From Spirochaetota bacterium (lineage in GTDB: Bacteria; Spirochaetota; UBA4802; UBA5550), in contig JAGNKX010000026.1 in assembly GCA_017999915.1 (NCBI GenBank), forward strand, positions 1-50,021: 50,021 nt of DNA, given 5' to 3'. The position numbers and the translations under genes were made by a program. The notes below the pieces were generated by a model, which saw nothing but the letters and a program-made list of their open reading frames with translations, did not search any database and was not told the origin of the DNA. Positions 41,441 to 50,019 of this stretch are shown here, piece after piece; positions within the stretch are counted from its first letter, which is position 1; each line of letters starts with the position of its first letter.

Positions 41441-42127
41441 GTGAAAAGCATAAAAAAAATCGCTCCCGCTTTTCCTGCGGCCCCACCGGGATGGACTATC
41501 GTGGCTAAGACCGCCATCCCCGTGATAATAACGCTTTTACTTTTCATCATAACCACCCATGTCGTTTCGATCCCTTCCTTTAAAAGCGCTCTTCTTGAAT
41601 CCAAAAAGCAGCTCCCCATCGACCTCTCGATGACGGTATTGAGCCTCCTCTCCAATTACGAATCCCGCGTGCGCCTTGGAGAGATATCCCCGGCGGAGGC
41701 CAGGAAAAGGGCGATCCTTCGCATAAGGGATCTGCGCTACGGCCCGGAGAACAAATACTATTTCTGGATAAACGATACGACCCCCAGGATGGTCATGCAT
41801 CCCTATCGTTCGGAACTGGAGGGAAAAGATTTGACGTATTACGCCGATTCCTCGGGCAAGCGCCTCTTCGTTGAGATGGTCGACGTCGCAAAGAAAAATA
41901 AATCCGGTTTCGTCGAATATATTTGGCAATGGACCGATAAAACGGACCTTGAGACAAAAAAAATATCATATGTCGTTCTCTTTGAACCATGGCAGTGGAT
42001 AATCGGCACCGGCGTCTATTACAGGGATGTGGAGCATGTTATCAACGACCTGACGAAAAACATCAACAGGGCCTTCACCGCCATCATTATCATCGTGGCC
42101 ATGGTTTCGTCCTTCGTAATCATCTAG
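41441..42127 (+). pseudogene. Cache sensor half of a histidine kinase, ended by an in-frame amber codon
   Basis: From a GTG at 41441 the frame encodes a cytosolic start, a membrane helix (AIPVIITLLLFIITTHVVS), an extracytoplasmic Cache domain (KYYFWINDTTPRMVMHPY, YVVLFEPWQWIIGTGVYY) and a second helix (AFTAIIIIVAMVSSFVII). It stops at TAG 42125-42127. The same frame continues directly with SLVREKKRMTAEENLRK and a complete kinase domain. A single base change would restore a 455-codon sensor kinase. It may be a recent pseudogene, a sequencing error or a readthrough site. Single Cache domains bind small organic acids. Confidence 0.7.
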
Positions 42128-42805
42128 TCCCTGGTCCGAGAGAAAAAGAGAATGACGGCGGAAGAGAACCTGAGAAAGCTGTTGACCGAGAAAGAGGTAT
42201 TGATCAAGGAAGTCCACCATCGCGTCAAGAACAACCTGCAGATCATCTCGAGTCTCATCAACCTGCAGTCCTACTCGATAAAAGACGAGGGAATGACCGC
42301 GATATTCAAGGAAACCCAGGGGCGTATATTGACGCTGTCGGCGATACATGAGCTGCTCTACGGTTCGGACGACCTGTCCGTCATCAGCATGAGAACCATC
42401 ATCCAGAATCTCATCGGCAATATTTCATATCTCACCGGGATCAGCGAGCGGAAGATATCCGTTGTCTATGACATCCAGGACCTTGCCGTCTCCATGGACA
42501 TCGCGATACCCGTGTCTTTGATCATCAACGAGGTGGTTACAAATTCATTTAAACACGCTTTCCCGGACAGAAGCGGGACCGTACGCATCGTATTCAATGT
42601 GTTTGATAAAAAGTATTATTCCCTGGTCATAGCGGACGACGGCGTCGGGATGGCGTCCAGCGGCAAAACCGAAGTATCGGAGACACTGGGTGTTCAACTC
42701 ATCGGCGCCCTTGTGGGGCAGCTCAATGGCAGGTATGAAGTCATCACGAAAGGAGGCACCGAGTATCGCTTTATCTTCCCTCAATCCGCCGACGGCCGAG
42801 GCTGA
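42128..42805 (+). CDS. HisKA_2 histidine kinase domain, downstream of the amber codon
   Basis: An internal ATG at 42152 would give 217 residues. H-box EVHHRVKNNLQIISSLINLQ is the HisKA_2 type; the ATPase domain has NEVVTNSFKHAFPDRSG, DDGVGM and LIGALVGQLNGRYEV. The reading frame is the same as that of the Cache half. If the amber codon is real, this soluble kinase could be made separately from 42152 but would lack its sensor. Partner regulator unknown; the single-domain receiver at 47387 is a candidate. Confidence 0.8.
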   Translation, partial: SLVREKKRMTAEENLRKLLTEKEVLIKEVHHRVKNNLQIISSLINLQSYSIKDEGMTAIFKETQGRILTLSAIHELLYGSDDLSVISMRTIIQNLIGNISYLTGISERKISVVYDIQDLAVSMDIAIPVSLIINEVVTNSFKHAFPDRSGTVRIVFNVFDKKYYSLVIADDGVGMASSGKTEVSETLGVQLIGALVGQLNGRYEVITKGGTEYRFIFPQSADGRG

Positions 42806-43263: not shown

Positions 43264-43288
43264 GGCATTCTCCTCTAACAGTTTCCTG

Positions 43289-43508
43289 AAAAACTCCCTC
43301 CTTGGAGTTTTTGCCGACGCTTTTTAGCGCATCCTGCGCAGCGTCGGCATTCGGACATCTTGTCCAGCACATGTCGGTTTTACGAAGTGAATTCGTAAAA
43401 CCTCACATTTTTCTCGGCTAATGCCTCGAAAAATGGCGATACATCCATGTATCGTTTAGCAGTTTGCTGATTTTCATCAAACTGCTAATGATTACCGTCC
43501 CGTTCGGG
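43289..43508. repeat. Array of eight consecutive palindromes
   Basis: Eight hairpins follow one another with almost no gap: AAAAACTCC/GGAGTTTTT (43289-43312); GCCGACGCT/AGCGTCGGC (43313-43348) with GCGCA-TCC-TGCGC nested inside; GGACA-TCT-TGTCC (43353-43365); GGTTTTACGAA/TTCGTAAAACC (43376-43402); CATTTTTC/GAAAAATG (43406-43435); CGATACAT-CC-ATGTATCG (43437-43454); TTAGCAGTTTG/CAAACTGCTAA (43456-43488); CCCG-TT-CGGG (43499-43508). It fills the space between two minus-strand genes. ACATCCATGT occurs here and in the later repeats. Confidence 0.85.
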
Positions 43509-45959: not shown

Positions 45960-46260
45960 GCACTACCTCTTCAAGACTTGATAATTAACGCCTGCCGCTG
46001 ATAATCCATATTGAATTATGCCGACACGGTCATGGATATAATGTCCCATCAATACATCAATAATTAATTATGGATGCTGTAAAACTCCATAATCAATCGT
46101 ATTGACTCACGCCGCCGGAGGCGGCGGGAGCAGGCACATTATTTATTAGCATTTATGCTACAGGTTTAAAATTAATCTTATCAAAATCAATCCGAATTGG
46201 ATTTGAGAGGGGGATTTGCATCATGTACATTAGCCCGGGGTTTAAACCCCGGGCCAAGAA
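45960..46260. other. Intergenic region with two palindromes
   Basis: No gene. It contains the hairpin CGCCGCC-GGA-GGCGGCG at 46110-46126 and the 22-base palindrome at 46233-46254, which lies just after the stop codon of the minus-strand membrane protein gene. Confidence 0.5.
46233..46254. repeat. Perfect 22-base palindrome
   Basis: GCCCGGGGTTT followed directly by AAACCCCGGGC. It lies seven bases from the stop codon of the minus-strand membrane protein gene. Similar palindromes occur as intergenic repeats in other bacteria. It may end transcription or be a mobile element trace. Confidence 0.7.
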
Positions 46261-46995: not shown

Positions 46996-47109
46996 CATGG
47001 CACCTCCTGGCGCAAAGTATATGCCTCAACCATAGGCAATCAATTTTATTTTGTAAATCATTTTATTAGAGCCTGCCAAAACCCCGCGACCGGTAGCAGT
47101 CGTAAATTA

Positions 47110-47273
47110 GGGGGGCTTGGGCCATCCCGCTCGTCCGCCTCGTATAAGCAGAGCCAAATGCGACATCCTGTCGCGGCTCTGCACTCGGACCTCCTGTCCA
47201 GCGCACCATGTTGACTCGGCGGAATCGGCGACATCCGTGTCGCCTGCTCGCCGGGATGGCTCCATGCCCCCCC
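47110..47273. repeat. Composite nested palindrome, long form
   Basis: Outer arms GGGGGGC (47110-47116) and GCCATCCC (47121-47128) pair with GGGATGGC (47253-47260) and GCCCCCC (47266-47272). Inside are CCGCC/GGCGG (47135-47139 with 47218-47222), GCAGAGCC/GGCTCTGC (47148-47155 with 47175-47182) enclosing CGACA-TCC-TGTCG, a GGAC/GTCC hairpin, and GGCGACA/TGTCGCC (47227-47244). It is homologous to 49534-49639 but has an extra module at 47148-47205. Confidence 0.85.
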
Positions 47274-47328
47274 AAAAATTATACTGCTAACCCCGCAACC
47301 CGCCGCCAATACACTTTGAATTATTGAG

Positions 47329-49442: not shown

Positions 49443-49533
49443 GGATGTGTTGCGGTTGTAGATACGCCTAACGAATCATCTTTCTCTGCTATTATCTCAC
49501 ATCTATCATTTCACGGTAGCTATTGTAAATTGT

Positions 49534-49639
49534 GGGGGCATGGGCCATCCCGCTCGTCCGCCTCGTATAACATCCATGTTGACTCGGCGGAATCGGCGAC
49601 ATCCATGTCGCCTTCTCGCAGGGATGGCGCCATGCCCCC
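49534..49639. repeat. Composite nested palindrome, short form
   Basis: Outer arms GGGGGCATG (49534-49542) and GCCATCCC (49544-49551) pair with GGGATGGC (49621-49628) and CATGCCCCC (49631-49639). Inside are CCGCC/GGCGG (49558-49562 with 49586-49590) enclosing AACAT-CC-ATGTT, and GGCGACAT-CC-ATGTCGCC (49595-49612). It is the short version of the repeat at 47110-47273. Confidence 0.88.
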
Positions 49640-49691
49640 CTGAAATTATACCGCTACCTCATTTCACAACCGCCAAGCGCCTGAAAAAATA

Positions 49692-49729: not shown

Positions 49730-49804
49730 CGGGGTGTAGCTCAGCCCGGTTAGAGCGCCTGCTTTGGGAGCAGGAAGTCGGAGGTTCGAATCCTCTCACC
49801 CCGA
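49730..49804 (+). tRNA. tRNA-Pro (anticodon TGG)
   Basis: Complete cloverleaf of 75 bases: acceptor CGGGGTG/CACCCCG, D stem GCTC/GAGC, anticodon stem CCTGC/GCAGG with loop TTTGGGA giving anticodon TGG, and T loop TTCGAAT. The T stem GGAGG/CCTCT has one G-U pair. CCA is not encoded. Confidence 0.97.
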
Positions 49805-49814
49805 AAAAGCGGCT

Positions 49815-49917
49815 AATCGCGGAGGCTCATCATTCGCCCGCCTCGTAAAAACCTCGTGTTTACTCGGCGGGACCGGCGACATCCATGTCGCCTGCTCATT
49901 GATAAGCCTCCACGATT
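49815..49917. repeat. Composite nested palindrome between two tRNA genes
   Basis: Outer arms AATCG, GGAGGCT and ATCA (49815-49832) pair with TGAT, AGCCTCC and CGATT (49900-49917). Inside, CCCGCC/GGCGGG (49837-49842 with 49866-49871) encloses GTAAA/TTTAC, and GGCGACAT-CC-ATGTCGCC lies at 49875-49892. The inner part matches the other composite repeats; the outer arms differ. Confidence 0.85.
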
Positions 49918-49946
49918 GATGCCTGAAGAGAAGAATTGATTGATAT

Positions 49947-50019
49947 GCGCCAGTAGCTCAGTGGATAGAGCAACGGCCTTCTAAGCCGTTGGTCGCTGGT
50001 TCGATCCCAGCCTGGCGCG
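49947..50019 (+). tRNA. tRNA-Arg (anticodon TCT)
   Basis: Complete cloverleaf of 73 bases: acceptor GCGCCAG/CTGGCGC, D stem GCTC/GAGC, anticodon stem ACGGC/GCCGT with loop CTTCTAA giving anticodon TCT, and T stem GCTGG/CCAGC. The discriminator base is G; the window ends two bases later, so an encoded CCA cannot be judged. Confidence 0.96.

Follow-up and report, generated by a model that had tools for sequence, protein, structure and literature searches.

What is the row of hairpins that lies between two genes near position 43289 of the window (the whole stretch of 50,021 nucleotides analysed here, from a bacterium of the Spirochaetota)? A preliminary description of the sequence counted eight palindromes end to end over the entire 220-base gap (43289-43508) and took them as possibly a larger relative of the composite repeats further along the window or a structured RNA or, failing further copies and conserved pairing in relatives, as a local curiosity. 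The row is very probably a transposon of the non-autonomous DNA type (MITE) that exists in a short form of about 150 bp and a long form of 206 bp.

The stretch 43274-43489 folds far beyond chance, both as DNA (z = -13.6) and as RNA (z = -10.9), and none of 200 shuffles is equally stable, in agreement with the earlier remark that random DNA would not give such a row. Alignment of 21 copies from the same genome, together with a profile match, places the limits of the element at 43275-43488 (+ strand, long form), including a 4-bp duplication on each side and 206 bp between them. All the stems first described are present, but the element comprises seven hairpins, one of them nested, and the final palindrome of the earlier count (about 43499-43508) falls beyond its limits and is absent from the other copies. 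The duplicated CTAA occupies 43275-43278 on the left and 43485-43488 on the right. The left terminal inverted repeat, CAGTTTCCTGAAAAAC (43279-43294, + strand), is found unchanged at the end of IS1182/IS5-like insertion sequences in related genomes, and the right one (43469-43484, - strand) has the consensus CAGTTTGCTGAAAAAC in the copy alignment. Hairpin 1, AAAAACTCC/GGAGTTTTT, has a 9-bp stem confirmed by a stem check (43289-43312). It is followed by a two-hairpin unit with C-NTCC-TG loops, here called module M (43313-43373, + strand), which is delimited by alignment of long and short forms, by a covariance model (model R1, 85.3 bits) and by covariation. The 10-bp outer stem of its nested hairpin (43312-43349) encloses GCGCATCCTGCGC at 43327-43339, seen in the fold and the stem check, and the fold gives the second hairpin, GGACATCTTGTCC, at 43353-43365. 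The remaining hairpins are supported by both covariation and the stem check: GGTTTTACGAA/TTCGTAAAACC with 11 bp and the strongest covariation (43376-43402), CATTTTTCTCGGC/GCCTCGAAAAATG (43406-43435), CGATACATCCATGTATCG with 8 bp (43437-43454) and a 15-bp hairpin formed by the right end itself, TTAGCAGTTTGCTGA/TCATCAAACTGCTAA (43456-43488). Elsewhere in the window, a sensor histidine kinase gene (41441-42805, + strand) is apparently split by an in-frame TAG at 42125-42127, its two halves (41441-42127 and 42152-42805) sharing one frame.

The element is far from a local curiosity. A search of its own genome (G000, 5.46 Mb in 29 contigs) with this stretch, in which copy numbers are lower bounds, recovers at least 21 near-complete copies of this family (family 1), at least 16 of them short (150 bp) and at least 5 long (206 bp), together with truncated and solo-hairpin derivatives. 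The 21 near-complete copies share a mean pairwise identity of 93%. Their flanks, one weak stretch excepted, are unrelated to one another and to the flanks of copies in relatives. Neither the orientation nor the position of the copies relative to genes is fixed: most lie between co-directional genes, in either orientation, and few between convergent ones. Relatives of the same genus carry both forms at 83-90% identity, and in more distant genera the copies are diverged or partial. The named neighbours of a gene adjacent to the element are uncultured Spirochaetota MAGs. An exact pattern scan of the genome contigs and searches of plasmids and phages gave no match.

The ends of family 1 are 16-bp terminal inverted repeats, CAGTTTCCTGAAAAAC/GTTTTTCAGCAAACTG, with a single consensus mismatch. 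Directly outside them, the 4-mers are identical in 15 of 21 copies and match at three or more of the four positions in 19, against 0-1 identical pairs among the 21 in shifted registers. The duplicated sequence is CTAA in most copies, so often that it could be mistaken for part of the element were it not for one copy with CTAT/CTAT and for the partly changed cases. Orthologous sites free of the element are found in a sister species (G003) at two loci, L028 and L014, where G003 has 155 and 149 bp less, respectively (the element with one duplication being 150 + 4 bp). At L028, the G003 alignment runs continuously from the upstream to the downstream gene except for the element (GATAATAT|CTAA-element-CTAA|TTTTTC), and in G000 the duplicated CTAA includes the stop codon that ends the upstream gene. 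This comparison comprises two loci whose neighbouring intergenic DNA has diverged, and the sister-species alignment contains no clean single CTAA. The empty sites are taken from these two copies rather than from the one in the window because the 154-aa protein beside the latter has no homolog in 20 relatives. At L014 (about 1176-1198), an operator-like palindrome, TTAATGAACGACCATTAAT, adjoins the family 1 insertion in the gap that separates a TetR-family gene from one for an enoyl-CoA hydratase, and both G004 and G015 have this motif close to a TetR gene. The CTAA beside the palindrome in these two genomes was considered as a target and rejected, being a similar motif elsewhere and not an orthologous site.

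The left 22 bases of family 1 also terminate insertion sequences elsewhere in the order (genomes G002, G003, G016, G020, G023, G031, G039 and G045). Beside one such end in G002 begins a 219-aa transposase fragment with a Pfam DUF772 domain (1.7e-23), which matches the NCBIfam models IS1182 (1.8e-39; 136 bits against a cut-off of 270) and IS5_4 (1.8e-38; 132.6 against 140 bits). As the scores of the fragment fall under both cut-offs, its assignment to the IS1182 or the IS5 family is tentative. G003 contains a 480-bp internal-deletion derivative of such an insertion sequence with both ends kept. A transposase of this IS1182/IS5-like group would have bound the ends of family 1 and moved the element in trans. 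We infer this movement from the shared ends, and it may be past: a search of G000 found no relative of the G002 transposase, so the copies may now be immobile. Dispersed copies, terminal inverted repeats, target duplications, ends shared with insertion sequences and orthologous empty sites are among the marks of a MITE, and these are all found here.

The interior of the element is maintained as paired structure. Among 33 short copies, 92.6% of the cells pair, dropping to 34-50% when the structure is shifted. Changes on both sides occur at 19 pairs against a shuffled mean of 6.6, a number reached in none of 500 shuffles, and in 63 cells against 12.1; both the further copies and the conserved pairing whose absence would have made the row a local curiosity are thus present. 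In a separate profile alignment, G-U wobbles (46 cells) are exactly as frequent as A-C cells (46), which are G-U on the other strand. Selection on an RNA should favour one strand, and the absence of such a bias argues for DNA. The inner hairpins, conserved in structure and not in sequence, would most likely act as DNA, in the form of cruciforms or single strands. Such hairpins could protect the element, aid its excision or serve as landing sites.

Where the short form has CAGG, the long form carries 60 bp (43313-43372). A module that aligns with it (47148-47207) replaces CATC in an ACATCCATGT hairpin of a second MITE family (family 2), whose long form spans 47090-47290 (+ strand), as defined by copy comparison and the covariance model. 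The net gain is 56 bp in both families (206 against 150 bp in family 1, typical lengths of 200 against 144 bp in family 2). A short form of family 2 without the module lies at 49514-49656 (+ strand; copy comparison) within a perfect 9-bp duplication, TCATTTCAC. The ends of family 2 are GGTAGCAGT...ACTGCTACC, and its 9-bp duplications are perfect in 7 copies and match at 8 of 9 positions in 6 more, the best register within 2 bases having been chosen. Families 1 and 2 differ in ends and duplications (CAGTTTCC.. with 4 bp, GGTAGCAGT.. with 9 bp), and by these sequence features they are considered different mobile families that carry one module. The kinship first proposed with the composite repeats thus holds for module M, common to 43313-43373 and 47148-47207, and for the recurring ACATCCATGT-type hairpins, but not for the elements as wholes. 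By sequence reading, a third composite repeat (49810-49920, + strand) has the inner hairpins of family 2 and a different outer stem; it lies between two tRNA genes (49730-50019). Family 2 copies at L129, L130, L131, L134, L136-L139 and L147 carry another module in the second hairpin (CTGCCAGGATGGCAG...GGGCACGGATGCCC...GTGAGCGAC), which also adjoins module M in G007 and G015. In those at L153, L155 and L156, the module M site holds other, unrelated hairpin sequences, as if it were a hot spot.

Module M extends well beyond these two families. A covariance model built from 15 sequences, with a capped number scored per genome, recognises it in at least 34 of the order's roughly 45 genomes; elsewhere in the phylum, matches occur in a minority of genomes and have weaker scores. 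In the window, the model recovers only the two known copies, and over 366 kb of other loci it gives no convincing match. Pairing holds for 98.7% of cells in 38 matches, and 140 cells are changed on both sides, against 37.6 in shuffles. The alignment of these matches is biased towards the structure to which it was fitted, but the unfitted alignment of the 15 sequences agrees. Of 586 cells, 571 are Watson-Crick, 7 G-U and 5 A-C. The C-NTCC-TG loop sequence and the order of the hairpins are conserved across the order. In other genomes, the module has varied palindromic surroundings and sometimes forms tandem or inverted pairs; at L149, L150 and L151, it appears in a third setting (GCAAAA-M-CNTGTTTTGC), part of neither family. 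In the long form of family 1, this separate, order-wide module occupies one position, having replaced 4 bp of its host element.

Several other explanations of the hairpins were weighed. A structured RNA (a regulatory leader, an sRNA or a processing signal), with hairpins selected on the transcript, would account for the very stable fold and the strong covariation, and was named as one option in the preliminary description. It is nevertheless very improbable: wobble is balanced between the strands in family 1 and nearly so in module M, the copies sit at unrelated loci in no fixed orientation or position to genes, and an Rfam search of the window, which covers described RNA families, returned tRNAs and nothing at the element. 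A literature search with the hairpin sequences gave no relevant match among the papers listed. Bidirectional terminators are suggested by the A and T runs that flank hairpin 1 and make it terminator-like on either strand. The prevalence of copies between co-directional genes makes this reading extremely unlikely, and one terminator needs neither seven hairpins nor a duplicated target; any termination may be incidental to the element. Just as remote is the idea that the elements are REP/BIME-type palindromes mobilised by RAYT/Y1 transposases encoded in this genome. Six Y1_Tnp genes are present and the elements are indeed palindromic and intergenic, but those Y1 genes that were inspected have different, perfect palindromes on their flanks (e.g., GGGTGGGGTTTAAACCCCACCC and GGGACAGAACAGTGTTCTGTCCC) and not family 1, which has inverted ends and a 4-bp duplication. 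Such features are not known to arise from HUH transposition. The palindromes beside Y1/RAYT-like genes at L044, L045 and L049 are long and perfect, with arms of up to 28-bp, and differ from gene to gene. A window palindrome at 46224-46255, AGCCCGGGGTTTAAACCCCGGGCC, closely resembles those flanking the L045 gene and is probably a REP-like element of the system to which that gene belongs.

A further reading is compatible with the MITE, since it applies only to the hairpins of the interior. Template switching (quasipalindrome correction) could keep the stems paired, so that covariation would record a mutational process without function. The near-perfect Watson-Crick pairing, the few one-sided intermediates and the strand symmetry all fit, and the symmetry of wobble does not distinguish such correction from selection on DNA folds. 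By itself, however, template switching leaves unexplained the C-NTCC-TG loops and the hairpin order conserved across the order, and it is a possible explanation that we consider less likely than not to suffice. For the row as a whole, the MITE remains the preferred explanation. A bolder proposal goes further and takes module M itself to be mobile: a DNA module recognised by its shape, a single strand folded into two hairpins whose loops are C-NTCC-TG, which would insert into the hairpins of other elements by 4-bp replacement, and which would have spread through this order of Spirochaetota, building hairpins within hairpins across unrelated MITE families. This proposal is speculative and rather improbable on present evidence.

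The element illustrates how long rows of hairpins can originate, namely from a transposon interior enlarged by added hairpin modules. A dispersed DNA structure is revealed as well, with stems that vary freely, yet remain Watson-Crick, and loops that are constant across the order. Free stems with constant loops are what one would expect if a site is recognised by its shape, as is known for few DNA sites, and module M provides a concrete case in which to test structure-targeted mobility among uncultured bacteria.

How does family 1 compare with known systems? Its 4-bp, YTAR-like duplication and the DUF772 transposase of its presumed partner recall IS5-family MITEs. These have short TA-centred duplications. 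The likeness is qualified by the transposase fragment, which scores just under the IS5_4 cut-off. Bacterial MITEs with an insertion sequence partner include Correia elements, RUP/IS630-Spn1 and Nezha/ISNpu3 (PMC3049150). Like them, family 1 is short and non-coding, with IS-like inverted ends, a target duplication, a base-paired interior and many dispersed copies. In contrast to them, its ends are IS1182/IS5-like, seven hairpins follow one another with one nested, and an optional 60-bp module also occurs in an unrelated MITE family. When IS1272, a member of the IS1182 family, inserts, it takes the place of a stem-loop, removing 21-85 bp of target and making no duplication (PMC5678879). It is a probable relative of the transposase that shares its ends with family 1, its insertion is tied to stem-loops and its loss of target is reminiscent of the 4 bp that module M replaces. 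Insertion directed by hairpins is therefore plausible for the module. Family 1 itself makes a 4-bp duplication and thus does not follow the stem-loop-replacing mode. Integron attC-like sites differ in that family 1 copies are dispersed and not set in cassette arrays. The nearest parallel to family 1 and module M is the Streptococcus BOX element; in S. suis, two end types enclose one boxB module (PMC3049150). Both are modular stem-loop repeats with an optional middle module, and module M likewise lies within two end families. The likeness is one of architecture only. As differences, the stems of module M change freely across the order while its structure is kept, the module also occurs outside both families and it replaces 4 bp. 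Family 1 is most readily viewed as a new MITE family with an unusual shared hairpin module, conserved in structure and comparable to BOX.
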